Part shown: positions 2,092 to 63,127 of the stretch, in pieces
Position numbering within the stretch: position 1 is the first letter of the stretch
Layout: every line of letters begins with the position of its first letter
Virus record (IMG/VR): IMGVR_UViG_3300009151_000061
Location: 1-64,000 of that record
Reading direction: 5' to 3' (one strand)
Source of the DNA: a virus
DNA length: 64,000 bases
Notes under the pieces: generated by a model
Seen by the model: only the letters and a program-made list of their open reading frames with translations
What the model was told of the DNA's origin: nothing
Database searches by the model: none
Translations under genes and position numbers: made by a program

Positions 2092-2865
2092 ATGGCAACT
2101 AAACTATCCTTAAAATTTAATAAATCGAAGTTTTCCGATCTTGTAGATAAGTTACAAGACCTAACCTCTATTGAAGACGTTATCAAACTTAAAATACAAA
2201 AAGATACCACTCTTATCTACACAATGTTAAGTAGTGAAACACAAGTATTAGCTCTTAAAAGTTATCTAATAAATACATCAGATTATATTGAAAACTTTAA
2301 TGAAGACACCACATTTGACTTTATTATTACCTCAGCTCCAAGATTTGTAAAGAATCTAAAATTCTTTACAAGTGATAACCCAATCAAAATGGATATTATT
2401 TACAAACCTCAACCAGAAGATGAAGAAACAATGCACGTTAGATCAGCTCAGTTTACGAATGGTAAGTTGAAAATTTCGTGTGTAGGTGGTGAGGAGTATA
2501 AGATTAAGGATATTAAAAAAGAACTCTTAAATCAAAGATTAAATATCAAGAACTCTAAATGGGATTTCAAGATATCCCAATCCGATTTTAACGATGTTAA
2601 AAAACTTTGTTCTATTAATAATGAAGAAAGGATTTTAAACATATCAGTAACAGATGGTTTAGTTACTATGAATGAATCTGCTAAATGGGAGTTAGAAATA
2701 GACACAATCACTCCAATGAATACCAATCTAATCTTTGGTAAGAAATACCTATCAAATATAAATGATGGAGACTTTATTCAGTTTTATGTATTTGAAACCT
2801 TTATCTTAGTTAAAGATGATATATCAAATTTGATGCTTAGCTTTGAGACAAACTTTGATGATTAA
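2092..2865 (+). CDS. sliding-clamp-like protein (T4 gp45-like)
   Basis: 257 residues with the repeated alpha/beta pattern of a PCNA-fold clamp. The second half begins WDFKISQSDFNDVKKL and ends with the strand pattern FIQFYVFETFILV followed by LMLSFET, which parallels the C-terminal domain of T4 gp45. T4 gp45 is 228 residues, so this is slightly longer. The role would be as processivity factor for the phage polymerase and, if the T4 model holds, activator of late transcription. The assignment is based on pattern and fold-like layout, not on a strict sequence motif, because clamps have none. It overlaps the convergent HNH gene by 4 nt. A promoter-like AT-rich leader precedes it, after the nadV terminator. 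Confidence 0.55.
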   Translation: MATKLSLKFNKSKFSDLVDKLQDLTSIEDVIKLKIQKDTTLIYTMLSSETQVLALKSYLINTSDYIENFNEDTTFDFIITSAPRFVKNLKFFTSDNPIKMDIIYKPQPEDEETMHVRSAQFTNGKLKISCVGGEEYKIKDIKKELLNQRLNIKNSKWDFKISQSDFNDVKKLCSINNEERILNISVTDGLVTMNESAKWELEIDTITPMNTNLIFGKKYLSNINDGDFIQFYVFETFILVKDDISNLMLSFETNFDD

Positions 2866-3608
2866 TCACTTCTTTTATTTCCTTTAGAAATATTTTCCCT
2901 CCAGAAAAGCGGTTGAAAATTAGTATAATGGTTCAATTTATATATATCTTCCTCAGTCTCAGCCCAACTGATTGGGGTTTTATGGTCTAATTGCCAATAA
3001 GTAGCATAGTTCTCCCAACACATCTCCTCCGTGAATTGCGACTCAATATAAACTTTAAACTCCTCAAAAGAGCAACCTAATATCTGTACTGTCTTTTTTG
3101 ATTTTTGTGTATATCGAGATTTAAAAGATTGTGATATTAGTGTTCTTATAGAACAAGTAAGTCTATATAAAGGATTATTTTTCTTTTTATTTCTAACATA
3201 CTCCCTGTTTAATGAATTGAAATATTCTTTCTTCTCATTCCTCTTTTTCCTTCTTCTTTCATTTACAAATTCTTTGTTATCTTTATTATAGTCACTAATT
3301 CTTTTTTTCACCCTTTCTTTATTATTCTGATACCATATTTTCTTTTTTTCACTAATATCTTTTTTATTTTGATCCCTATAGTTTCTATGGTAATCTTCAT
3401 CATATTTCTCAGAATTATATTTACTTTTATATTCTTTTATTTTTTCTAAATTTTCATCATAATAACTTCTCACCCTTTCTTTAATAATATCCTTGTTTTT
3501 TTGATAATATTTTTTTCTGTATTCTTTAATACATGATTTACATTTTTTACCTCTTTTTGGAAATTCAGATATTTCTTTCTCAACCAAGCAGAAATTACAT
3601 CTCACCAT
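2862..3608 (-). CDS. HNH homing endonuclease (zinc-finger/coil family, copy 1)
   Basis: 248 residues. The N-terminus has a CNFC...CKSC zinc-ribbon. A long Lys/Glu-rich region follows, with repeats of the type YYxxNKexIkE, probably extended helices reading DNA. The C-terminal nuclease part contains LGCSFEEFKVYIES, then QLDHKTPISWAETEED and KLNHYTNFQPL, i.e. the D-H...N core of HNH enzymes. It is a paralogue of the proteins at 29544-30227 and 50775-51446. It stands alone on the minus strand between plus-strand genes, as expected for a free-standing mobile endonuclease. Its promoter-like sequence TTTAATATATAAATA lies about 18 nt before the ATG. Confidence 0.85.
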   Translation of the reverse strand: MVRCNFCLVEKEISEFPKRGKKCKSCIKEYRKKYYQKNKDIIKERVRSYYDENLEKIKEYKSKYNSEKYDEDYHRNYRDQNKKDISEKKKIWYQNNKERVKKRISDYNKDNKEFVNERRRKKRNEKKEYFNSLNREYVRNKKKNNPLYRLTCSIRTLISQSFKSRYTQKSKKTVQILGCSFEEFKVYIESQFTEEMCWENYATYWQLDHKTPISWAETEEDIYKLNHYTNFQPLFWRENISKGNKRSD

Positions 3609-4767: not shown

Positions 4768-5496
4768 CTACTTTATGAAATCCTCAAATTTTATCACCGA
4801 TTCTTTTAACATCATATCAAACTCCTTATCAAAATCTTTTGGATCCTGTTTATATCCTGATTTAGATTCATCTAATGCATCCTCCGTCCATTGATAAGAC
4901 CAAAATAAACTATCCGGTATTTTGAACCCAAAGAAGGTTAAAACCTTCTTTTCTAGTTTAATAGCTTCCACACCATTCCAGTTATGACCAACTGATACAA
5001 CACCTACTTCTATATCTTCAATTATATTCTTCTCACCCAGAGTTGCCCATCTGTTTTCAAGCCAAGTTAATCTCTCAACCAATTTTGAATAAACAGCATT
5101 CATCTTACCCCATCTTATAGACCCAAAAAATATGACTGTGTCAGATGTTAATAACTCATTTACTACTTTATATAACTCATCATCACTATTATTAAATGAA
5201 GCCCAACACCTTAATTCACCGGTTTTATCCTTAACACTTTTCAATAAAGCTTCCTTTACACCACATCCATTACCACTCCTACCACTAACATTACCCTCAC
5301 ATTGATGAATGTTTAACTTAGATACATCTATAATAGTAACAACACTTTTACCCAACTCTTCTTGCATCTTATAAGCAAGAGCCGATGATTTAGGAATCTC
5401 ATCATGACCATCCCATCTATTTGAAGTTAAAAGAAAAAGTATTTTTTCTTTTCCTCTAAGGTGACTTATCGTTTTATCGTATTTAATTTTAGACAT
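4768..5496 (-). CDS. NADPH-dependent FMN reductase / flavodoxin-fold protein
   Basis: 242 residues with a flavodoxin-like fold: a first strand and phosphate-binding loop region (ILFLLTSNRWDG), then VTIIDVSKLNIHQCEGN, and TVIFFGSIRWGKMNAVYSK, which resembles the FMN-binding segment of the NADPH-dependent FMN reductase family. The family uses FMN and NAD(P)H in the cytoplasm. The substrate is unknown; a link with the phage NAD+ salvage genes 2.7 kb upstream is possible but not shown. It overlaps the start of its own downstream partner order: its ATG at 5496 abuts the stop of the 5496-5906 gene, so the two are probably co-transcribed. Confidence 0.78.
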   Translation of the reverse strand: MSKIKYDKTISHLRGKEKILFLLTSNRWDGHDEIPKSSALAYKMQEELGKSVVTIIDVSKLNIHQCEGNVSGRSGNGCGVKEALLKSVKDKTGELRCWASFNNSDDELYKVVNELLTSDTVIFFGSIRWGKMNAVYSKLVERLTWLENRWATLGEKNIIEDIEVGVVSVGHNWNGVEAIKLEKKVLTFFGFKIPDSLFWSYQWTEDALDESKSGYKQDPKDFDKEFDMMLKESVIKFEDFIK

Positions 5497-5919: not shown

Positions 5920-6687
5920 TTAAATCTCAAAATCAATCATATCACGCTTAGCAGAGTTTATACATCTCTTGGTTATACACAAATTAGATATGTCCGCAAT
6001 CTCCGAAGCCGGTATATTATTTTTGAAACCATAATAAACAGATCTTTTATGATCTATAGTTGGGTATCCATTAGATATTGGAGAATCATTAATATAACAT
6101 TTTATATACTCACCATCATAATAATCTTTACCATCCCAATTTTCATACAGTACCTTACTTGATTTTCTTGTTAGTCTTCTTACCTCATTCTTGTAAATTC
6201 TAAAAGAAATTCTATTTATCTCAGTATATCTATCCTCTGACTTCTCCACATCAACAATACTACATTTACCTACTTTACATTTCTTACAAGTATAGATACC
6301 ATCTCTCTTTTTATTTGAAATATACTTGTTAAATTGTATGTTAACTACACTCCCACAGACTTCACATATTGGATCTACCCTTACATGAGATACACTTGGT
6401 AAGTCTAAAACATTTATTTTTAGTTTGTTATTTATTATAGCATTGTACCCCAATTTTAGGTAGTGAGTTACGTTTCTATATGAAATATTTATTTCAATGG
6501 ATTCGTTTAAGAACCCCCCATCATTTTTGTTAATCTCGATCTTTGATATAAAATCATTTTCCTCTTTTCTATCTCTATCCGATCTTTTGTAGATTTTTTC
6601 AGAACTTTTACAGTTTTTGGAGCAGTATTTTTTACAAGTCCGACCAACAACCACATTATTACACTTTCTATAATTACATATTCTCAT
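5920..6687 (-). CDS. HNH-type homing endonuclease beside the interrupted polymerase gene
   Basis: 255 residues from the internal ATG at 6687, chosen because TATATATACC lies just upstream and because MRICNYRKC starts a Cys-rich zinc-binding region (RKCNN...CKKYCSKNC). A second zinc ribbon is formed by CEVCGS and CKKCKVGK. The C-terminus has PTIDHKRSVYYG followed by an Asn/Lys-rich ISNLCITKRCINSAKRD, fitting an HNH-like DH...N site. It lies head to head with the polymerase fragment starting at 6777, about 90 nt away. By analogy with T4 mobA, which sits beside the gene 60 bypass sequence, it may be the mobility partner of the polymerase interruption. Confidence 0.75.
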   Translation of the reverse strand: MRICNYRKCNNVVVGRTCKKYCSKNCKSSEKIYKRSDRDRKEENDFISKIEINKNDGGFLNESIEINISYRNVTHYLKLGYNAIINNKLKINVLDLPSVSHVRVDPICEVCGSVVNIQFNKYISNKKRDGIYTCKKCKVGKCSIVDVEKSEDRYTEINRISFRIYKNEVRRLTRKSSKVLYENWDGKDYYDGEYIKCYINDSPISNGYPTIDHKRSVYYGFKNNIPASEIADISNLCITKRCINSAKRDMIDFEI

Positions 6688-6776
6688 ATGGTATATATAA
6701 AAAACAAAAGCTCCTGTTTTATACCCCACTAACTTTTTATCTATATTTTAGTATAAATAAAAAAGAAAAATATTTC

Positions 6777-6911
6777 ATGACAAGGGAACAAAAGTTAGAA
6801 AAACTTGAGTCACTAAAAAACCAAGCGAGCGAGCTGAAGAGGGAAGTAGACTACTACAATTCCTTACAGCTCGCTCTTTTTGAACCCCCTCTGATTACTC
6901 AGAGGGGGTAA
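6777..6911 (+). CDS. family B DNA polymerase fragment: fingers helix up to motif B (upstream part of interrupted gene)
   Basis: 44 codons from ATG 6777 to TAA 6909-6911, too short to be noticed alone. The first 34 residues end with KREVDYYNSLQLAL, the helix that in family B polymerases runs straight into motif B (KxxxNxxYG). The continuation of motif B (KLVLNGSYGAF) is found in another frame from 6919. After Leu34 (CTT 6876-6878) the frame runs through a hairpin and encodes only FEPPLITQRG, which has no counterpart in polymerases. The exonuclease and palm motif A part of the enzyme is not upstream in this window, so the polymerase must be split and the N-terminal part encoded elsewhere. An A-rich leader with TATAAATA precedes the start. 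Confidence 0.8.
   Translation: MTREQKLEKLESLKNQASELKREVDYYNSLQLALFEPPLITQRG
6884..6909 (+). other. perfect GC-rich hairpin within the polymerase interruption
   Basis: The stem ACCCCCTCTGA / TCAGAGGGGGT is 11 bp without mismatch, loop TTAC, in otherwise AT-rich DNA. It begins 5 nt after the CTT codon where the polymerase homology stops and is followed by TAA, TGA and TAA in the three frames (6909, 6913, 6917). No T tract follows on either strand, so it is not a normal terminator. Placement resembles the stem-loop after the take-off codon of T4 gene 60. Confidence 0.85.
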
Positions 6912-6915
6912 ATGA

Positions 6916-8010
6916 CTAAAATTAGTATTAAATGGGAGTTACGGAGCATTCGCTACGAGTTATTTCATCCTGTTTAACAATCATGTAGCGGGAACAATTA
7001 CGGCACAAGGTCGTACACTTACACAAACTATGCACAAGGTTAATGAGGACTATTGGTATAACCAATGGCACCTTGATACCGAGTTGCACCAAAAAATGAA
7101 TCTTAAAAACGTTACTCCAATTCAACGTGGTGAGGAAGTTAGTATTTATGCTGATACCGACTCATTATTCGTATCGTTTAAACCAGCGATGGATCACTGT
7201 GAATGGAAACATGCTTATTCTACAGAGTTAGAGTTTATACATGAGTTAGACAAACAACGTTATGCTGGATACTTCAAGAAGTGTCTTGAGGAACACGCAG
7301 ATGAATATGGTGTTGATAACAAGCAGGATTTTGAGCTTGAACGTATATCAGAATCAATCATCAACATTGCTAAGAAGAAATATATTCAACATATCGTATT
7401 TGAGGACGGCATTCCATATGACCGTTTAACTTATATGTATCCTAAAGGAGTTGAACTTGTTCGATCTTCTACACCTCTTTTTGCAAGGGATAAGATTGTG
7501 GGTATTGTTAAATACTTATTTTCTAATCCGGACACGTTTAACATTAGGGAGTTATTAAAGCTAGTTAAGAACTTGAAGAAAGAATTTGATCTATGTGTAC
7601 CAGATAAGATTGACGAGATCTGTATGCAGTCTTCTGTTAATAAGTATGAAGAAAAAGTACTTCAAGATACACCGACTATAATAACGGTTCCCGGAGCTCA
7701 CTTCTCTGTTAAGTCTGCAGCTTATCATAATAACTTATTACATAAGAATAAAGCTTTACAGTCTAAGTATGAGTTTATTAAATCGGGTACAAAGATTAAG
7801 TATTATTACTGTAAGGATACTTCTATAAATGAGGTTTTTGCTTATACTCGTGGTTCTTATCCGATTGAGTTCGCGCCTCAGATAGACCTATCGACCCAGT
7901 TTGAGAAATGTATCTTATCACCTATTAACTCGATTATAGCACCACTTGGACTTCCGGAGATTACTAAAAGGTTGAGTGTTGTTATGGATATTTTTGGTAG
8001 TGGATTTTAA
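6916..8010 (+). CDS. family B DNA polymerase, C-terminal catalytic part (downstream part of interrupted gene)
   Basis: The frame opens after TGA 6913-6915 and begins with Leu (CTA 6916). It shows motif B (KLVLNGSYGAF), the conserved helix (TITAQGRTLTQTMHKVNE), motif C (YADTDSLFVSF) with the catalytic Asp pair, and a thumb domain to the TAA at 8010. The first in-frame ATG (7030) lies after motif B, so initiation there would give a dead enzyme, yet the codons upstream of it are conserved as polymerase sequence. If ribosomes pass from CTT 6876 to CTA 6916, the product joins to the 6777 fragment as a 397-residue protein with an exact motif B. Function: nucleotide polymerisation in phage DNA replication, working with the clamp and an N-terminal part not seen here. 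Confidence 0.9.
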   Translation, partial: LKLVLNGSYGAFATSYFILFNNHVAGTITAQGRTLTQTMHKVNEDYWYNQWHLDTELHQKMNLKNVTPIQRGEEVSIYADTDSLFVSFKPAMDHCEWKHAYSTELEFIHELDKQRYAGYFKKCLEEHADEYGVDNKQDFELERISESIINIAKKKYIQHIVFEDGIPYDRLTYMYPKGVELVRSSTPLFARDKIVGIVKYLFSNPDTFNIRELLKLVKNLKKEFDLCVPDKIDEICMQSSVNKYEEKVLQDTPTIITVPGAHFSVKSAAYHNNLLHKNKALQSKYEFIKSGTKIKYYYCKDTSINEVFAYTRGSYPIEFAPQIDLSTQFEKCILSPINSIIAPLGLPEITKRLSVVMDIFGSGF

Positions 8011-8028
8011 TATAAAGCATTTAAAAAT

Positions 8029-8042
8029 CTTAATATATACCC
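8029..8042 (+). promoter_or_regulatory. phage promoter-like motif CTTAATATATACCC
   Basis: Copy of the recurrent TTAATATATAC motif, ending 3 nt before ATG 8046. Confidence 0.45.
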
Positions 8043-8045
8043 TTA

Positions 8046-8900
8046 ATGAAAAGATGGACGGAATTTCTTAACGAAAACTTATTTACACCGGTTAGTCAAC
8101 CGGATAGGGATTTGTTATATAGAAAGATTAACGAACTTAAAAGATGGTTGCATTTACCAGAGGGTTTAGATTTAAGAAATGTGATAGATAAGATATTCAG
8201 AGAATATGGATATGTGAATCAACTTACTCCAGAAGAGATAGAACAATTTGGTAAAGGGTTGGAATCTCTTAAGCTTACTGATATGTCTAACAGTTATATC
8301 ACTTGGAAGTTAAATCAAGCAATGCCGTATGGTATTGAGAAGTTGACTTTAGTTAGAGATGCTAATGGAGATTGGGATTTTTTAAATAAGTTAAATACTA
8401 ACTATACCGCACTCGCTGAGTTATTAACTGAATTAATAATGAGGGGTATAGAGTATAATAAAGAAAAGGGGATGGTAATCTATGAAAAGGTGATTGCTAA
8501 TCCACAAGAAGGATTGATGGGTATTAAGAAATACTTAGAAAGACTTATAGTTTTATATTTTATTGAAAGAGGTAAAGGATTGGATGATTTCCGAATGTTT
8601 ACTTTAAAGATAAAAGAACTATCAAAACTAGGTGAGGAAGCTGAGGAAACGATAGCTGAGTTACTCAGAGAGAATGGATTTGAGGTTGTTTACCAAGGTG
8701 GTAATGGAGACTTTATTGATATGATTTTTGGATGTGATATGATAGTAAAACATGAAAAGTGGGGTTATAAATCTGTTCAGGTTAAGAATAAGTTTCCTGG
8801 ATGGAAGTCATTATCCCATTATAAAGTAGACTGGCTGGGACTTGCTTATCCTAATATTGAGTTAATTGATTTTAAGACGCAACAACCGGTTCGTCTATAA
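8046..8900 (+). CDS. PD-(D/E)XK nuclease-like protein with capsid-targeting-like N-terminus
   Basis: 284 residues. The N-terminus MKRWTEFLNENLF is one of the best matches to the shared packaging motif, with an L-N-E cleavage-type site. The middle is helical and unrecognised. The C-terminal third has the order typical of restriction-like nucleases: a helix with Glu (GEEAEETIAELLRENGF), then GNGDFIDMIFGCDMIV with acidic metal-binding residues, then SVQVKNKF with the QxK signature. The role may be to cut host or competing DNA after injection, or to act on phage DNA in the head. The nuclease call rests on motif order; the alternative is an inactive relative. Confidence 0.68.
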   Translation: MKRWTEFLNENLFTPVSQPDRDLLYRKINELKRWLHLPEGLDLRNVIDKIFREYGYVNQLTPEEIEQFGKGLESLKLTDMSNSYITWKLNQAMPYGIEKLTLVRDANGDWDFLNKLNTNYTALAELLTELIMRGIEYNKEKGMVIYEKVIANPQEGLMGIKKYLERLIVLYFIERGKGLDDFRMFTLKIKELSKLGEEAEETIAELLRENGFEVVYQGGNGDFIDMIFGCDMIVKHEKWGYKSVQVKNKFPGWKSLSHYKVDWLGLAYPNIELIDFKTQQPVRL

Positions 8901-12396: not shown

Positions 12397-12870
12397 ATGA
12401 GAGATTTAAGAATACTAAAGTCCCTACAAAAATCTAGACACGAACATTTTTTATCAGTTGATTTCGAATTTTATAAAAGATGGAAATACATTATCAAATT
12501 AATCTTATTTTTTAATAAGAAATATATTCCTTGTGAGATTTTTCGTAGAAAATATAAATACCAAAGAAACTTTGTAGTCGTTGGACTAAAATACTCTGGT
12601 AAAAATGTAAAACGCAGAACGTCCGGTTTTGCAAAAGAGTTCGTACAAAATCACGACAACCCAAAGTGTATCTATTGTGAGTCAAAACTCAATATGGAGA
12701 ACGCAACCTCAGACCACATCGTACCTATATCCTCCGGTGGAAATAATTGCCAAGTAAATATAATTGTTTGTTGTAAAGCTTGTAATAATGAAAGAGGGAA
12801 CATGGAGTTTAATGAGTATCTCAAAAGAAAGAATCCAAAATATAAAGACGTAAAATATCCATTTATATGA
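12397..12870 (+). CDS. HNH endonuclease (classic CxxC type)
   Basis: 157 residues. The C-terminal half holds a full HNH module: CIYCESKL, SDHIVPISSGGNN, then CCKACNNERG with four zinc-binding Cys and the DH...N catalytic core. The N-terminal half is basic and could bind DNA. It has its own AAATATATAC box before ATG and is flanked by phage genes of unrelated function, fitting a free-standing homing endonuclease. The stop overlaps the next start (ATGA). Confidence 0.88.
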   Translation: MRDLRILKSLQKSRHEHFLSVDFEFYKRWKYIIKLILFFNKKYIPCEIFRRKYKYQRNFVVVGLKYSGKNVKRRTSGFAKEFVQNHDNPKCIYCESKLNMENATSDHIVPISSGGNNCQVNIIVCCKACNNERGNMEFNEYLKRKNPKYKDVKYPFI

Positions 12871-29543: not shown

Positions 29544-30227
29544 TTAATATTTATACATTTTTATATGTCTATTAGTATAGCTACATAATGGTTGGAGATT
29601 TGTATAATGATTTAATTTAATTATATCATCTTCTGCTTCTGCACTATCTAAAGGTATAATATGATCAACATCCCAACCATAATTTAATTCACCGCTTTTA
29701 AACTTACCATGATTTTCCCAATTCATCCATGATTCAAACTTAGATTCTAAATATAATTTGAAATCTTCAAAAGATATACCCAATATATCTTCCGTTTTAG
29801 AATTTTTAGTGTATCCATTTAATCTAAGCGAATTACCTATCATTCCACGACAAATTTGTTTTGTTTTAAATAATGGGTCTGACTTTTTCTTATTATATTG
29901 AGTTTTAGCATATTCACGATTTTTAATTGTTAATAACTCTCGGTTATTTTCTCTATATTCCTTTTGAATCAGTCTAACCTCTTCTTTATTCTCCAAATAA
30001 TATTTTGATTGATTCTCTCGTATTCTCTCTTTATTTTTAGAGTAATATTTCTTATCCGACTCAGATACAAATTCTATATTATCTATCCTATATTGTTTTT
30101 TATATTTATGAATTCTTTCCTTATTGTCAATAATATATTGTTTAGTACAAACTTTACATCTAGTTTGATTTTTATAAAAATCTTCTATTTCTTTAATTGA
30201 ATCACATATATAACATTTCTTTTCCAT
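29544..30227 (-). CDS. HNH homing endonuclease (zinc-finger/coil family, copy 2)
   Basis: 227 residues with the same layout as the proteins at 2862 and 50775: N-terminal zinc ribbon (CYICDS...CKVC), Tyr/Asn/Lys/Glu helical repeats (YYSKNKERI, YYLENKEEV), then LGISFEDFKLYLES and the HNH core WDVDHIIPLDSAEAEDD followed by KLNHYTNLQPL. Its own TTTTTAATATATAC box lies just before ATG. Inserted upstream of the tail block. Confidence 0.87.
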   Translation of the reverse strand: MEKKCYICDSIKEIEDFYKNQTRCKVCTKQYIIDNKERIHKYKKQYRIDNIEFVSESDKKYYSKNKERIRENQSKYYLENKEEVRLIQKEYRENNRELLTIKNREYAKTQYNKKKSDPLFKTKQICRGMIGNSLRLNGYTKNSKTEDILGISFEDFKLYLESKFESWMNWENHGKFKSGELNYGWDVDHIIPLDSAEAEDDIIKLNHYTNLQPLCSYTNRHIKMYKY

Positions 30228-45700: not shown

Positions 45701-46603
45701 ATTGTATAACCAAGGAAGCTTTGACTTAATCTGATCCTCAGTTAATGGGGTAAATTGACTAGATGAAGTACCAACTGTATAAACCGCAAATACAACATTA
45801 TCTGGTTTACCGTCATCATCTGTTGGTATGGATTGTGTAGCATTAGAATCAGGTAGAGTTATTGAATCATCTTTAATATATCTATACTCATATTTATAAT
45901 CAACCCCCTCTTCATACTGACCTGTTGAGTAAACTATAGACTGTGTTATAGATGTATATCCTTGTGGTAAGTAATCATATGTAGTAACATCTGATTGACT
46001 TGATTGGGACAGACCTGTATTAGAGTTAGAAGTTGTAGTAGTATCTGATTTTCTTATATTGGATAGACTATTTAATTTACCTAAAGAATTACTGAAACTA
46101 TTAGTACCTCCATATCCAAGAGCGGCTGGATTTCCAATCGGCTTAGCAGATGAACCACCAAATGCTAAAACCCTTGCGATTATATCTTCAATAAGGACGA
46201 AATTGTTTAAAACTATTTTAGCTACCTCTATGTAAGGTTTCTGTGTCTCAAATATAGAAGTAATAAGAGCTTTCTCCAAGGATTTAAGACCACCTAGATT
46301 ACCACTACTAACCCCCATTGATATATCACCTGGGGGTACTTGTATTCTACCGTCTTTAAGGTATTGTTCATGTGGTCTATTAAGAGTGGTTCCAGTGGCT
46401 TTTGTAAATGTTTTTAACTGGTTAACATTATTCATTTTACCGATGTTTTTCATTAACATCTTTTTCTGAATACCATCAGCAATACCAATATCACCTTGGG
46501 CGAATTTAATTAAATACTGGATATCTGTAACAAGTAGAACTGGTTTAGGAGAAGGTTCTCGTGAATCACGAGGGTAATTTACAAGGGTAAAATTTATAGC
46601 CAT
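42788..46603 (-). CDS. giant virion-type structural protein
   Basis: 1271 residues, the largest gene in the window. Ser/Thr/Asn/Tyr-rich, with beta-repeat-like stretches such as SSQFTPLTEDQIKSKLPWLY and two similar motifs (SIVYSTGQYEEGVDYKYEYRYI, shortened here as STGQYEEGVDY, and STGVYIPGVDYTY), indicating an internal duplication. A TPR-like helix pair (DYPSAIDALNDAQKSDPNNQ) and hydrophobic helices (LNFVLSMVTLPLKLVLGIV and GIFEGIFNGIVDFMWALFG) occur toward the C-terminus. A tail or baseplate component is most likely; no tail-fibre or tape-measure signature is certain. Confidence 0.62.
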   Translation of the reverse strand: MAINFTLVNYPRDSREPSPKPVLLVTDIQYLIKFAQGDIGIADGIQKKMLMKNIGKMNNVNQLKTFTKATGTTLNRPHEQYLKDGRIQVPPGDISMGVSSGNLGGLKSLEKALITSIFETQKPYIEVAKIVLNNFVLIEDIIARVLAFGGSSAKPIGNPAALGYGGTNSFSNSLGKLNSLSNIRKSDTTTTSNSNTGLSQSSQSDVTTYDYLPQGYTSITQSIVYSTGQYEEGVDYKYEYRYIKDDSITLPDSNATQSIPTDDDGKPDNVVFAVYTVGTSSSQFTPLTEDQIKSKLPWLYNSGKWYGNYNQITTNNEVARNYYLQYFLDDASKKMDKQGLTQSQKDSALTQLSTMLTTVGTQSETPNSGVPSMKGITMLQSHIDNIIKYGFLPISNNSNTNGLGYVPSQYYNINYAYEAKQISGPSGSIWIDPDSEYDMKFIKCDSSTDIKYTDISGHEVSTTIVRFIKNNLTISLSNNDYFYYSLSGNNLNIPTTGTVKEISWDNIDLKQSYLLEMRYYKIPDEFKSGYSFVDNYYTYVLTNNNGVYTLQRGVYSNGVFSVDIYYNPNFLTFPNGKVLFFNNLKFDYVQVYANDLVSLLPSDIQQNIVSIKLTDLSISQNRVVIPPTEIRVKDSTNPFGKIIDRNQITNKQLQIDTLYSKGYYGTPMQGVDSNNQTVDANQDIEQIYRYMTSEDDTETYYIVEGVLSSKNKNPISSIIDQAEGSIGGGGNYHIKDAIKAIKPFISLMIQIFTKLFPAIDLLLDLIKNPSTFILDIITDKFGTGVGLSHFGFFSKDFINDLKKVGSKSKTNPTPSDVKEMKSYVKNSSLKNYVYITDAGVAKFILDGVSSVKLFGDLIKLPGLKFGLKVQLSSLLTNTPQIPFLPILGGSVPSTDKTLAEILGISHDIINQQMKLSVLANSTSYSSNLSSNTFTTQAGSNVYSEDISIQYSTGVYIPGVDYTYIYVTDYVRGLLVKAGEYEDQGDYPSAIDALNDAQKSDPNNQFIKDKISELKKLLAKSLEGLALAGIQPILNFVLSMVTLPLKLVLGIVQYIMDFFKGLTNPFELPSKIVDFVSFKWMSDFFNPTVPTSLFGLSGINFDIQKYLLEWIPGAKANSKSSFDMNQISKLPWTNLPTYNLDQIKSMIFPNSSIPKMIPLLQLNGILGIFEGIFNGIVDFMWALFGIGGIINPPPHIKLTKETNDDLSPLDIMNLLNGNYFSSGTQSFNPNIQPSNFIYEIKTSDGRDIRDLNRDELQKWMEENKNFQFIFDF

Positions 46604-50625: not shown

Positions 50626-50778
50626 ATGAAAAAGAAAAAGAAAATATCTGTTTCAATAAACAGATTTCTATTAGAAAAAATAGAAAAACTAACTACGAAT
50701 AAAAGTAGACTAATAGAACAAATCCTATTAGACTATCTAAATAAATCGGGAATAAAAACAGATGATATTATACTATGA
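50626..50778 (+). CDS. ribbon-helix-helix DNA-binding protein coupled to an HNH endonuclease
   Basis: 50 residues from ATG 50626, chosen because TATATATAC precedes it. Beta strand KKKISVSINRFLLEKIEKL, then NKSRLIEQILLDYL, fits an RHH domain. Its stop overlaps the ATG of the HNH endonuclease (ATGA), so the two are translated together. It may repress the endonuclease or guide it. A separate divergent RHH gene lies at 50377. Confidence 0.72.
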   Translation: MKKKKKISVSINRFLLEKIEKLTTNKSRLIEQILLDYLNKSGIKTDDIIL

Positions 50779-51446
50779 TATACAAAACTTGTAAAGTATG
50801 TAAAATAAACAAAGATATAAATGACTTTACCAAATGTAAAGAGTGTAGAGATGGATATACAAATCAATGTAAGAAATGTATATATGATAAACTAAGATCT
50901 CGAATAGAAAGTGATAGAGAAAAATTTAACAAAAAAGCTAGAAATTGGAGGCAAAATCCAGCAGCTAAGGGTAAAATATCCAAATATAACAAATCATATG
51001 GTGAAAAAAATAAGGATTTGAATAAAATTAGAAGAAAAAAATATACAGAAGAAAATAGAGATAAAATTAGAGAATACAATAATCAATATACAAAGGAACG
51101 TATGTTGAATGACCCTATTTTTAAATTAAAAAAGACCATAAGATCTAGAATTAAAGAAGTGTTTGATAGTAAACAATATACAAAAAAATCAAAAACACAT
51201 GAAATACTCGGATGTTCATATGATGAACTAATGGTCTATTTAGAATCCAAATTTGAACCATGGATGACTTGGGAAAATAAAGGGTTGTATAATGGAGAAC
51301 TAAATTATGGATGGGATATAGATCATATAATACCTTTATCTTCAGCTAAAACTGAAGAAGATATTATCAAATTAAATCATTATACTAATCTACAACCACT
51401 ATGTAGTAAAATTAATAGAGATATTAAAAAAGATAGAATTACCTGA
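50775..51446 (+). CDS. HNH homing endonuclease (zinc-finger/coil family, copy 3)
   Basis: 223 residues. N-terminal zinc ribbon (CKVCKINKDI...CKEC and CKKC), then Lys/Asn/Tyr-rich helices, LGCSYDELMVYLES, and the HNH core WDIDHIIPLSSAKTEEDI followed by KLNHYTNLQPL. Closely related to the 29544 protein over the C-terminal half. Coupled to the RHH gene upstream and ends in an 8-nt convergent overlap with the J-domain gene. Confidence 0.88.
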   Translation: MIYKTCKVCKINKDINDFTKCKECRDGYTNQCKKCIYDKLRSRIESDREKFNKKARNWRQNPAAKGKISKYNKSYGEKNKDLNKIRRKKYTEENRDKIREYNNQYTKERMLNDPIFKLKKTIRSRIKEVFDSKQYTKKSKTHEILGCSYDELMVYLESKFEPWMTWENKGLYNGELNYGWDIDHIIPLSSAKTEEDIIKLNHYTNLQPLCSKINRDIKKDRIT

Positions 51447-54145: not shown

Positions 54146-55207
54146 CTATAATGATTTTTTATACTCACTTTCCCATATAGAAACTATATTATATCCTTTA
54201 TTGATAAGGTTTTTTTCCTTATTAAGAGTTTTCTTATATAGATACCCAAATGTTGAATTGGTGAGGGGATTTATATTATTTGGATTGTAAATATTTGGAT
54301 TACCATGCCAAAAATCACCATTGAACTCATAAATTGTATTTGTTAATGGATCATATCCATCAACAATATATTTACCTATTTTATATTGTCTATGCTCATT
54401 TTTGATACTTAATGAGTCTAACCATTCTGTCTCTAATTTAGAAATCGATATTTCAGATCCACAAGATTTACATCCGAATCCACGTATATGATCATTTGCT
54501 ATTTGTTTAAATATACCATGTTTGGGACAAATTATTTCAAGTTTTAATTTAGATGATTCATATTTTGTTATTGAGTAGTCATATTTATTATTATGTACCA
54601 TATTAGAATAATCAATAAATTCAATTGTTGATCGCTTTCTATTTTTTAATGAACATTTAAAACATCCAAACCCTCTCAAATGTTGACTAGCGGTTTGTTC
54701 AAACAATCCATGTTCTTTGCATATTATTTTAATCTTTGAATGAGATCCTTTATATATTGATTGAGAGTAATCATACTTATTTTTATGTTTATTTTTGCAA
54801 ATTTCGATGAAGTTATCTGTTGTTATTTTTTTACACAAAGGGCAACCTTGTCCTCTTAAATGGTTTTTTGGTGATTTCTCAAACACTCCATGTTTTTCAC
54901 ATATAATTTTAACCTTATTGTGTGTAGTGGAATAACATACCATTGAGTAATCATATTTATTATTGTGTATTGTATTAGATGATTCAACAAATTTTAAAAC
55001 AGATGTTCTTCTATTATCATTTTTGCATTTTTTGCAAGAGTTTCCAATTAAATGTGAACCAACTCTCTGTTTAAAAATTCCATGAGTTGGACATATTATA
55101 CACACAATTGAATCATTATTTGTAAAATATACAAGAGAATAATCATACTTATTATTATGGATATCATTTGACCTTTCGATAAATTCTGATAATACTATTT
55201 TTTTCAT
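54146..55207 (-). CDS. zinc-repeat endonuclease with Vsr-like C-terminal domain (DUF723-type), copy 1
   Basis: 353 residues. The start at ATG 55207 follows TTTTAATATATACAAT. Four repeats of about 60 residues have the pattern HNNKYDYS-x-Y...KIxIICxxHGxFxQxxxxHLxGxGCxxC, each a likely zinc-binding unit for DNA recognition. The C-terminal 100 residues contain YIVDGYDPLTNTIYEFNGDFWHG and KNLINKGYNIVSIWESEY, which is a Vsr/PD-(D/E)XK-like nuclease. These proteins occur as mobile endonucleases in phages. Paralogue of 60185-61102. Confidence 0.78.
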   Translation of the reverse strand: MKKIVLSEFIERSNDIHNNKYDYSLVYFTNNDSIVCIICPTHGIFKQRVGSHLIGNSCKKCKNDNRRTSVLKFVESSNTIHNNKYDYSMVCYSTTHNKVKIICEKHGVFEKSPKNHLRGQGCPLCKKITTDNFIEICKNKHKNKYDYSQSIYKGSHSKIKIICKEHGLFEQTASQHLRGFGCFKCSLKNRKRSTIEFIDYSNMVHNNKYDYSITKYESSKLKLEIICPKHGIFKQIANDHIRGFGCKSCGSEISISKLETEWLDSLSIKNEHRQYKIGKYIVDGYDPLTNTIYEFNGDFWHGNPNIYNPNNINPLTNSTFGYLYKKTLNKEKNLINKGYNIVSIWESEYKKSL

Positions 55208-55253
55208 ATTGTATATATTAAAATCCAACCCATTACTTTGTCCATTATAATTT

Positions 55254-55985
55254 TTATGGTTCTGTAAAAATTTTATTACCATCTGTGAACTTTAATCCCT
55301 TTAACTGTCCATTAATGGAGTTACAAATATGCTCACTGTTACTAATAGTATTTTCTAATATTGAAAGCATTATATTCAATATAGAATATATTTTTAATAA
55401 ATTCTTTTCAGAAGTATAAAACTGACTATCACAAACACCACTTATTAAATCTATTGTAAGTGATATTATATCATTATTCTTTATCTTCATCTTCTCAATA
55501 ACTATCTTAGGTATTCCACTATTTTCCATTTCCCTTTCATAGTCGTAGATAGTATCATTAATAAGAGTTAATAATGAGTTCCAAAGAGTAGGATCATCCA
55601 TAGTCTCAAACTTTTTATCATCAACATATTTCTTAATATTTTCTTTGTGCTTTTTTAGATAAATAGATAAGTATTTTCTAAACACAACAGTTCTATACTC
55701 AGTTGAAAACTGAATAGTTGGGACTCTTGAATACATCCAAAAGTCAATATACTTAAAGATTTCATGGTTTAATATATCGGATTCTGTTATAGTTCTAATA
55801 TTAACAGTCTCCGTTTTTTTCTTCATTACTTTATCAAGAAAACGATCACTTATTTTAGTCATAAAACTATTGAACCATGTGGACTTAGTTAACATAAGGA
55901 CAAGAGTATAAACTACACCAGCTAGTATAGTAACCATCACACTTTGACCCAAATGTTTTTCAAAATATTGAAATATATCTTTCAT
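55254..55985 (-). CDS. membrane-anchored hypothetical protein
   Basis: 243 residues. One N-terminal transmembrane helix (VMVTILAGVVYTLVLML, residues 16-32) and a mostly helical cytoplasmic part. TTTTAATATATATTAAT precedes the ATG and is shared with the divergent gp6-like gene. No known domain. Confidence 0.6.
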   Translation of the reverse strand: MKDIFQYFEKHLGQSVMVTILAGVVYTLVLMLTKSTWFNSFMTKISDRFLDKVMKKKTETVNIRTITESDILNHEIFKYIDFWMYSRVPTIQFSTEYRTVVFRKYLSIYLKKHKENIKKYVDDKKFETMDDPTLWNSLLTLINDTIYDYEREMENSGIPKIVIEKMKIKNNDIISLTIDLISGVCDSQFYTSEKNLLKIYSILNIMLSILENTISNSEHICNSINGQLKGLKFTDGNKIFTEP

Positions 55986-60184: not shown

Positions 60185-61102
60185 ATGGGAATATCTAATA
60201 AATATAATAAAGACGAATTTGTAAGGAGAGCTAATTTAGTTCATAATAATAAATACGACTATTCTTTATCTGATTATAAAAATAGCCGAGATAAAATTGA
60301 TATTTTATGTCCTAAACACGGTATATTTAGACAAATGCCATATAATCATTTACAAGGAAAGGGATGTAACTACTGTTCTATGAATCAAAAAAATACTATT
60401 AATGATTTTATAGATAAGTCGAATAAAAAACATAATAGTAAGTATAACTACCCCGATAAAAATTACATAAATAGCGTAACCCAAATATCCATAGAATGTC
60501 CTAATCATGGAGTTTTTAGACAAACTCCCGGAAATCATTTAAGAGGAGTGGGATGCCCAAAATGCAGTGGGAACAGAAAATTAACAACCGATGAATTTAT
60601 AGATAAAGCTAATAAAAAACATAACTTCTTATATAAGTACCCCAACTTAAACTATAAAAACTATGATAGTGAAATAGATATAGAGTGTCCCAAACATGGA
60701 ATATTTAAACAGATAGTCAGAAATCACTTGACTGGAAGAGGATGTCAAAAATGTAGAAATTCTAAAGGTGAGTTAAAAATATCAGAAATTTTAAGCAAAA
60801 ATAATATAAAATACAAAAAAGAATATACATTCAATGATTTAAGACACAAAGATTTATTAAAATTTGACTTTGCTATTTTAGATGATAAAGAACTAATAAA
60901 ATATCTAATAGAATTTAACGGACAACAACATTATGACTTTAAGAAAAAGTTCCATAAGGATTATGATAATTTTATTATAAATAAACATAGAGACAACCTA
61001 AAGATAGACTACTGTAGAAGGAATGGATATAAGTTATATATAATAAGATATGATGATAATATCGAAGATATTATGAATAATATATTGAATGACAATATGT
61101 AA
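60185..61102 (+). CDS. zinc-repeat endonuclease with Vsr-like C-terminal domain (DUF723-type), copy 2
   Basis: 305 residues with three repeats of the pattern HNNKYDYSLSDY...IDILCPKHGIFRQMPYNHL (shown in part) and CxxC ends, then a C-terminal nuclease part: LLKFDFAILDDKELIKYLIEF followed by NGQQHYDF and a basic end YCRRNGYKLYIIRY (core parts DFAILDD, EFNGQQHYD). The EFNG-xxHY motif is the hallmark of this Vsr-like group. Its promoter-like TTTATATATAG lies before ATG. Confidence 0.8.
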   Translation: MGISNKYNKDEFVRRANLVHNNKYDYSLSDYKNSRDKIDILCPKHGIFRQMPYNHLQGKGCNYCSMNQKNTINDFIDKSNKKHNSKYNYPDKNYINSVTQISIECPNHGVFRQTPGNHLRGVGCPKCSGNRKLTTDEFIDKANKKHNFLYKYPNLNYKNYDSEIDIECPKHGIFKQIVRNHLTGRGCQKCRNSKGELKISEILSKNNIKYKKEYTFNDLRHKDLLKFDFAILDDKELIKYLIEFNGQQHYDFKKKFHKDYDNFIINKHRDNLKIDYCRRNGYKLYIIRYDDNIEDIMNNILNDNM

Positions 61103-62362: not shown

Positions 62363-63127
62363 ATGGTAATATATAAAGCCACTTTTCCTAATAATAAAGT
62401 GTACATCGGTAAAACTAAAAACTTCAAGAGCAGAAAATATCAACATATATGGAACAGTAAGAGAAATGTTAATAAACATTTGATTATGTATAAAGCCATA
62501 AGAAAATATGGCGAAGAAAATATAAAATGGGAAATATTATGTGAGTGTGATAATTTTGAGGATATGAAAGAAAAAGAAATTTTCTTTATTAAATTATACA
62601 ATTCGACATCACATAAATTTGGATATAATATGGTTTGTGGAGATAAAGAGGATTATAATAAAAGAGAAAATTTTAATAAAGAATACCAATTAGATATAAT
62701 TAAAAGAAAGCTAATATCTAACGGACATGATCCATCGAAATACATAGAAATAACAGATGAACTATCACTTGAGATATTAAATGATTATGGTAAAATTGGA
62801 ATAAGAGGATTGGCAAATAAATATAAAATATCAAGACAAAGACTAACTAGATTTATTAAATCAAAAGACATTGAAATAATTAAAGATATGGCTACAATTA
62901 CAAATTCAATTAAGATAGATGATAGTTTTATTAAAACTGTAATTCAAAAGTGGCAAAATGGTAAAACAATTAAAGATATATCAAGTGAAGAAGGACAAAC
63001 AATACAAACAATAAGTCGAATATTACACGATTCTAACATAAGAAAATCAAAAAGATTTAAAAATGGAAAAAGATATGACGGGAGACAACCGAAAAAAAGC
63101 AAACCTAACAATACGATTGGACACTAA
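62363..63127 (+). CDS. GIY-YIG homing endonuclease
   Basis: 254 residues. N-terminal GIY-YIG module: VIYKATFPNNKVYIGKTKNF (Tyr pairs), a basic helix SRKYQHIW, and EKEIFFIKLYNS with the catalytic Glu. The C-terminal half has two helix-turn-helix-like segments: GIRGLANKYKISRQRLTRFI and TIKDISSEEGQTIQTISRIL, typical of the DNA-binding tail of free-standing GIY-YIG homing endonucleases. It overlaps the RHH gene at 63063 by 65 nt in another frame. Confidence 0.88.
   Translation: MVIYKATFPNNKVYIGKTKNFKSRKYQHIWNSKRNVNKHLIMYKAIRKYGEENIKWEILCECDNFEDMKEKEIFFIKLYNSTSHKFGYNMVCGDKEDYNKRENFNKEYQLDIIKRKLISNGHDPSKYIEITDELSLEILNDYGKIGIRGLANKYKISRQRLTRFIKSKDIEIIKDMATITNSIKIDDSFIKTVIQKWQNGKTIKDISSEEGQTIQTISRILHDSNIRKSKRFKNGKRYDGRQPKKSKPNNTIGH

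Follow-up and report, generated by a model that had tools for sequence, protein, structure and literature searches.

Positions 6777 to 8010 of the window, the stretch of 64,000 nucleotides analysed here, encode on the forward strand the C-terminal portion of a DNA polymerase of family B (PF00136 positions 157-451, E = 1e-14, with a further match to a PHROG DNA polymerase). The window is the start of a viral record of 72,423 bases. Within motif B of this gene the polymerase homology is lost and resumes 37 nt further downstream, which raises the question how a motif interrupted in this way is converted into protein. The original prediction described a DNA polymerase broken in motif B and proposed that ribosomes bypass the interruption. 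The gap in motif B stands, whereas the interrupted gene is the C-terminal gene of a split polymerase and not the whole enzyme. The parts of the locus, in positions of the window, are as follows.

5920-6729, reverse strand: homing-endonuclease-like gene directly upstream, 269 aa from GTG or 255 aa from ATG
6777-6878, forward strand: ORF1, the opening 34 codons of the polymerase's C-terminal gene, MTREQ...LQLAL (fingers/start of motif B)
6808-6812, forward strand: 5' arm (AGTCA) of a possible long-range helix P1, with 6913-6917 (TGACT) as partner; tentative
6827-6836, forward strand: 5' arm of the upstream stem-loop P2, counterpart of the 5' stem-loop of T4 gene 60
6867-6876, forward strand: 3' arm of P2, ending at the take-off codon
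6876-6878, forward strand: proposed take-off codon CTT (Leu), the final codon of polymerase homology before its loss; CTT in 12 of 31 distinct loci
6879-6915, forward strand: non-coding gap of 37 nt (40 nt with the landing codon), closed in all three frames
6884-6909, forward strand: take-off hairpin P3, 11-bp stem and 4-nt loop, the C-run beginning 6 nt past the take-off codon
6913-6917, forward strand: 3' arm (TGACT) of the possible helix P1, overlapping the landing codon; tentative
6916-6918, forward strand: proposed landing codon CTA, which like the take-off codon CTT encodes Leu
6919-8010, forward strand: ORF2, which completes motif B (KLVLNGSYGAF) and contains motif C (YADTDS) and the polymerase C-terminus

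All predicted coordinates hold, namely CTT at 6876-6878, CTA at 6916-6918, 37 nt between them and resumption at 6919, where AAA TTA GTA TTA AAT GGG AGT TAC reads KLVLNGSY. The arms of the predicted 11-bp GC-rich hairpin (6884-6894 and 6899-6909) are 100% complementary. As had been stated, no frameshift can join the two halves, all frames being closed by TAA at 6909, TGA at 6913 and TAA at 6917; an intein at the gap was rejected on the same ground (all frames closed at 6909-6919). The two codons following the take-off codon are TTT GAA, with no adjacent stop codon. The segment 6777-6940 folds with -57.9 kcal/mol (z = -7.75), and none of 200 shuffled sequences reached equal stability. A second conserved stem just upstream of take-off (6827-6836 with 6867-6876) had been missed by the original prediction. 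A transcription terminator was rejected because no terminator-like site occurs in 6600-8200; no T-run follows the P3 hairpin. The sole tRNA gene found in the window is a tRNA-Leu with anticodon TAA at 500-584, which does not read CTN codons.

The close relatives of the window polymerase include very large uncultured phages (records of 634-642 kb, 65-73% identity). In the relatives the N-terminal half of the polymerase is encoded apart, by a gene of about 500-520 codons at another place in the genome, which comprises the exonuclease domain and the part of the polymerase domain that reaches profile position about 150-155; this half is absent from the window's own 72-kb fragment. Two polymerase genes are likewise annotated in Chryseobacterium phage MA9V-1. 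The C-terminal gene opens with a conserved short leader, MTREQKLEKLESLKNQASELKREVDYYNSLQLAL, nearly always with ATG, and this N-terminus of ORF1 with its start codon is common to interrupted and uninterrupted relatives. In some relatives motif C (DTDS) of the same gene is also broken, by a split intein whose halves are separated by an unrelated ORF (L203:627-3239 on the minus strand and L006:4121-4717; Pfam Intein_splicing, TIGR01445, TIGR01443), and N-pieces of matching length are present in L017, L034 and L086. Since a split intein also interrupts motif C, one polymerase would be encoded in such phages by three genes plus a bypass gap. The window polymerase (6919-8010) is without an insertion of roughly 75 residues that follows motif C in most relatives, and its match length is 1092 nt compared with about 1320 nt in most of them.

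Protein and DNA-pattern searches of viral contigs, together with phage records, yielded 35 gap-bearing contigs, of which 31 are distinct after removal of near-copies. The comparison with uninterrupted relatives proposed along with the original prediction sets 20 loci without a gap against these contigs at the same motif. Chance or sequencing error is excluded as the source of the gap because gaps recur in 35 contigs at several positions. Hairpin gaps are located at six codon positions within ten codons of motif B (LQLA/L/KLV/LNG/S/Y/GAF), where they interrupt at a codon for Ala, Leu, Val, Gly, Ser or Tyr. Including the landing codon the gaps measure 36-48 nt with every residue modulo 3 represented, so that frameshifting or stop readthrough was ruled out as a general route. 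The near-identical loci L079 (gap at L079:4225) and L080 differ by one G in the G-run of the gap (42 versus 41 nt), a difference of natural or sequencing origin that shifts the frame across the gap.

Take-off and landing codons were set by an exhaustive search for the best join between the final codon decoded ahead of the gap and the one immediately preceding resumption. The prediction that both are Leu codons in the window extends to the whole Leu position, where all 13 distinct loci are CTN/CTA (CTT/CTA in 12, CTG/CTA in one). The pairs are GCT/GCT (3) and GCT/GCA (2) at the Ala position, GTT/GTT (1) and GTT/GTA (1) at Val, TCT/TCA (1) at Ser and GGT/GGT (2) at Gly. Outside the Tyr position the first two bases of the take-off codon thus recur in phase in the landing codon in 23 of 23 distinct loci, with the families CTN, GCN, GTN, TCN and GGN at five of the six positions; full identity occurs only in GCT/GCT, GTT/GTT and GGT/GGT. 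The joint chance of the match over the five families is about 5e-9, a rough value taken against the trinucleotides of the same spacers. All five matched families are four-codon boxes, in which two bases largely define the amino acid, and this fits re-pairing by one isoacceptor. The eight Tyr loci, with TAT/AAC (3), TAT/TAA (2), TAC/GAC, TAT/CAA and TAT/AGC, are without a matched landing codon (AAC, GAC, CAA, AGC), TAA agreeing in two bases. A take-off one codon later, beside the stop codon, was rejected on inspection, since it gives no matched landing codon and an extra residue in motif B.

Every gap contains a C-rich/G-rich hairpin whose C-run starts 5-6 nt past the take-off codon at all six positions, and by this fixed spacing the codon phase of the hairpin is nearly constant across positions; the 3' spacer after the hairpin is variable in length. 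The P3 stem is kept in 31 of 31 loci with base-pair changes on both sides. An in-frame stop codon lies within two codons past take-off in 27 of the 31 loci, usually as the second codon (as the first in L062, L034, L146 and L010), the window being among the four loci without it. Pairing of P2 is found in 89% and 100% of cells in the Leu and Ala classes, compared with 42.5% at the same codons of uninterrupted loci, and in the Val class (L034, L146) the upstream stem is shifted downstream along with the take-off site. The 60 coding nucleotides before take-off fold with -23.6 kcal/mol in the Leu class, -21.7 in the Ala class and -14.7 in the Val/Ser/Gly classes, against means of -5.9 to -7.9 kcal/mol in the same test on uninterrupted genes, with no overlap (p < 0.001 for each class). 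At the Tyr loci the value is -9.3 kcal/mol and the upstream stem-loop is not above background.

In the alignment of the 13 Leu loci, 27 stem cells are changed on both sides (shuffled mean 11) and the covariation amounts to 0.237 (shuffled 0.116); none of 500 shuffles was as high on any measure, and slid structures score far lower than the actual stems. Several Leu loci (L021, L036, L062) have an upstream stem that runs with covariation through the take-off codon into the gap, and a landing region that pairs with the leader by a perfect 7-bp P1 helix, closing a three-way junction. Across the whole Leu class P1 is not significant (p = 0.1); a universal long-range helix was rejected, and P1, clear in some loci only, is kept as tentative. 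No excess stability, and hence no 3' stem-loop at the start of ORF2, was found in the 70 nt after the resume codon. The peptide encoded by ORF1 is conserved in uninterrupted relatives as well, and its conservation is for that reason uninformative on a nascent-peptide signal.

The original prediction also placed an HNH gene near the polymerase. The gene at 5920-6729 is homing-endonuclease-like by its matches to phrog_5104 (E = 6e-15) and the homing endonuclease family phrog_12131 (E = 5e-4), and relatives of it stand beside other interrupted copies; the HNH assignment was not recovered, as 5920-6729 has no Pfam HNH match. Such genes adjoin 21 of 31 interrupted but 1 of 20 uninterrupted loci (BLAST-based; Fisher p = 7e-6 without phylogenetic correction). 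They lie on the opposite strand a short way upstream, generally not more than about 100 bp away, and their proteins match PHROG homing-endonuclease families; the one in L009 is a GIY-YIG enzyme with NUMOD3. Counted among the 21 is L062, where an endonuclease-related fragment lies on the unusual strand about 250 bases upstream of position 4855 and the gap is intact, probably a decayed endonuclease with the gap retained.

When mapped on a maximum-likelihood tree, gaps are scattered in both presence and position, and the well-supported branches require the uninterrupted state to have changed at least 11 times. Two near-identical phages differ in that L024 has gap and endonuclease and L029 has neither; in another such pair, L013 carries a Tyr gap without endonuclease and L014 an Ala gap with one. 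Both pairs show very high identity beginning a little 3' of the gap and far lower identity on the leader (5') side, and because of this drop the unit of replacement appears to be endonuclease, leader and gap together.

The gap is in our judgement probably a programmed translational bypass within a mobile homing-endonuclease cassette, analogous to T4 mobA/gene 60. Judged from the sequences, the bypass reading is strongly favoured for most of the family because of the in-phase synonymous codon pairs, the stop codon by the take-off site, the constant hairpin spacing, the covarying upstream stem and the endonuclease cassette. The same features support the original prediction of an independent bypass allied to a homing endonuclease, which had named a tiny spliced element as the alternative. 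Translation of ORF1 (MTREQ...LQLAL) would halt once CTT occupies the P site, as the hairpin lying 6 nt further on borders on the A site. Peptidyl-tRNA(Leu) would then release and the ribosome slide across the gap, aided by refolding of the upstream stem-loop behind it, until the tRNA re-pairs on CTA and decoding restarts at AAA to give a continuous motif B. The free-standing homing endonuclease would cleave rival polymerase genes in their conserved motif B, the gap would break the endonuclease target in its own genome, and endonuclease, ORF1 and gap would spread jointly by gene conversion.

Other explanations have to be weighed against the bypass. The broken reading frame, together with the one-G difference between L079 and L080, might suggest a pseudogene, an assembly error or a phase-variable inactivation, to which we give a negligible chance in view of 35 contigs from many metagenomes, several positions and covariation. 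Moreover, the polymerase after the gap is under purifying selection, with dN/dS of 0.03-0.13 in interrupted pairs and 0.09 in the Tyr pair L024/L026; the value for L155/L161 (0.86) was discarded since the split intein cuts short their C-parts and their alignment cannot be compared with the others. A search of 20 gap-bearing records, most of which may be fragments, revealed no second family B polymerase, and a search of 12 records, which may likewise be fragments, no family A polymerase. Because of the purifying selection after the gap and the lack of another polymerase in these searches, the joined protein is presumably made. That the ORF1 peptide instead assembles with a protein initiated inside ORF2 might seem natural in phages whose polymerase already resides in two or three genes, but it is highly improbable: the window has no in-frame ATG, GTG or TTG between TGA 6913 and ATG 7030, and the 37 codons that precede 7030 are nevertheless kept as protein (14-23 synonymous versus 2-9 nonsynonymous differences between the window and each relative), and the break would fall inside the motif B helix.

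Removal at the RNA level, as a tiny intron of 36-48 nt cut out by a new ribozyme or by a nuclease/ligase pair recognising the hairpin (in some members of the family also a three-way junction), would account for the non-matching landing codons at the Tyr position, and flanks and gap of several loci do fold as a compact three-way junction. It is nevertheless improbable as the general explanation, as it predicts neither in-phase synonymous pairs in five codon families nor stop codons by the take-off site, nor a hairpin that stays in nearly the same codon phase at six positions. The variable length of the 3' spacer and the absence of any Rfam match in 6300-8300 at E <= 1 also count against it, and to our knowledge self-splicing introns are all far longer than 40 nt. 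One codon-matched bypass does not cover the whole family, because the Tyr loci are without codon match and upstream stem. A mixed family, in which Leu, Ala, Val, Ser and Gly gaps are crossed by codon-matched sliding and Tyr gaps by a codon-independent hop or RNA-level removal, agrees with the bypass explanation for the window itself; we hold it to be somewhat unlikely. In its favour the Tyr loci differ in two independent features, codon match and upstream stem-loop; against it they have the gene, related endonucleases and the type of hairpin in common with the others, which is not decisive. They also share with the rest of the family the 6-nt spacing, mostly the stop codon, and purifying selection. 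According to the title of a study by Herr et al. from 2004, landing can reportedly do with minimal conventional pairing, and the Tyr gaps may be a relaxed bypass that needs little of it. That they are crossed by an undescribed mechanism, either a hairpin-guided codon-independent hop or a minimal RNA splicing of ~40 nt, is rather unlikely; a bulge-helix-bulge splicing geometry was rejected by eye, since the boundaries in the Tyr loci do not fit.

T4 gene 60 is the long-standing example of efficient programmed bypassing. In T4 a homing endonuclease split the topoisomerase gene, and the resulting C-terminal gene, gene 60, has a short ORF1, a 5' stem-loop, a take-off stem-loop occupying the A site and matched codons, its gap being thought to protect against the endonuclease (PMC5009743, PMC3014915, PMC11194080). 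Like gene 60 with mobA, the locus described here is the C-terminal gene of a split gene with a short ORF1 (34 codons, 46 in T4), a non-coding gap (50 nt in T4), a take-off hairpin, a 5' stem-loop, matched codons and a neighbouring homing endonuclease. Sliding in T4 is reported to be of high efficiency up to 56 nt (PMC11194080), and gaps of 36-48 nt are within that range. There are also differences. The gene codes for a DNA polymerase instead of a topoisomerase and belongs to another phage group; the GC-rich hairpin starts 6 nt after the take-off codon, whereas that of T4 surrounds it; and in contrast to GGA-UAG in T4, take-off is usually followed by a sense codon with the stop one codon later. 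The landing codon is often synonymous rather than identical, natural variants exist at six positions, and one subtype is without codon match. A 3' stem-loop was not found, and the nascent-peptide signal required in T4 was not recognised here. By their sequences the motif B gaps would be a cassette of the gene 60 and mobA kind, yet they constitute a distinct family that sits in another gene and has an architecture of its own.

Among other systems, the byps of Magnusiomyces yeast mitochondria are likewise short inserts, many in number, that are skipped at translation with a codon match that is not always perfect (PMC5009743). They are mitochondrial, occur in many genes and are described as independent of mRNA context (PMC5009743), whereas the present gaps are confined to a single motif in a single gene, are accompanied by strong RNA structure and have an endonuclease as partner. 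Discontinuous phage genes are also known from the terminase of Streptomyces phage Hau3 (PMC5009743) and the tape-measure gene of mycobacteriophage Corndog, the latter adjoined by an HNH gene (PMC4351075); both are single unproven cases, the Hau3 gap being much shorter and with UUA (PMC5009743), and Corndog possibly using an ACG start codon instead (PMC4351075). Inteins and homing endonucleases of phage polymerases occupy the same gene and neighbourhood, and some gapped phages have the split intein in motif C; inteins are, however, translated and then spliced as protein, in contrast to the polymerase gap, which is closed in all frames.

Counterparts of the gene 60 bypass have long been presumed to exist elsewhere (PMC5009743), and bypassing in other phage genes was named a question of interest (PMC3014915). 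No description of this polymerase gap family was found in open-licence papers, and it is apparently the first family of relatives of the gene 60 bypass. About 30 natural variants with several codon families, shifted positions, two subtypes and uninterrupted relatives provide a comparative set for the features that bypassing needs. The family lends support to the view that bypass gaps originate as a form of immunity to homing endonucleases, and it presents an active-site motif that is repeatedly interrupted and apparently repaired only at translation.

Further homing-endonuclease-like ORFs of the window lie between phage genes at 2862-3608, 12397-12870, 29544-30227, 50775-51446, 54146-55282, 60185-61102 and 62363-63127; by eye they are of HNH, repeat-type and GIY-YIG-like kinds, and Pfam HNH confirms only 12397-12870. 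A general mobile hairpin was rejected after a search of 26 records for CCCCC-N11-18-GGGGG, which gave few sites outside the polymerase: 46312-46336 inside an ORF of the window record, one in G006 and three in the uninterrupted G021. The three sites inspected in G006 and G021 lie between genes and have T-runs after them.
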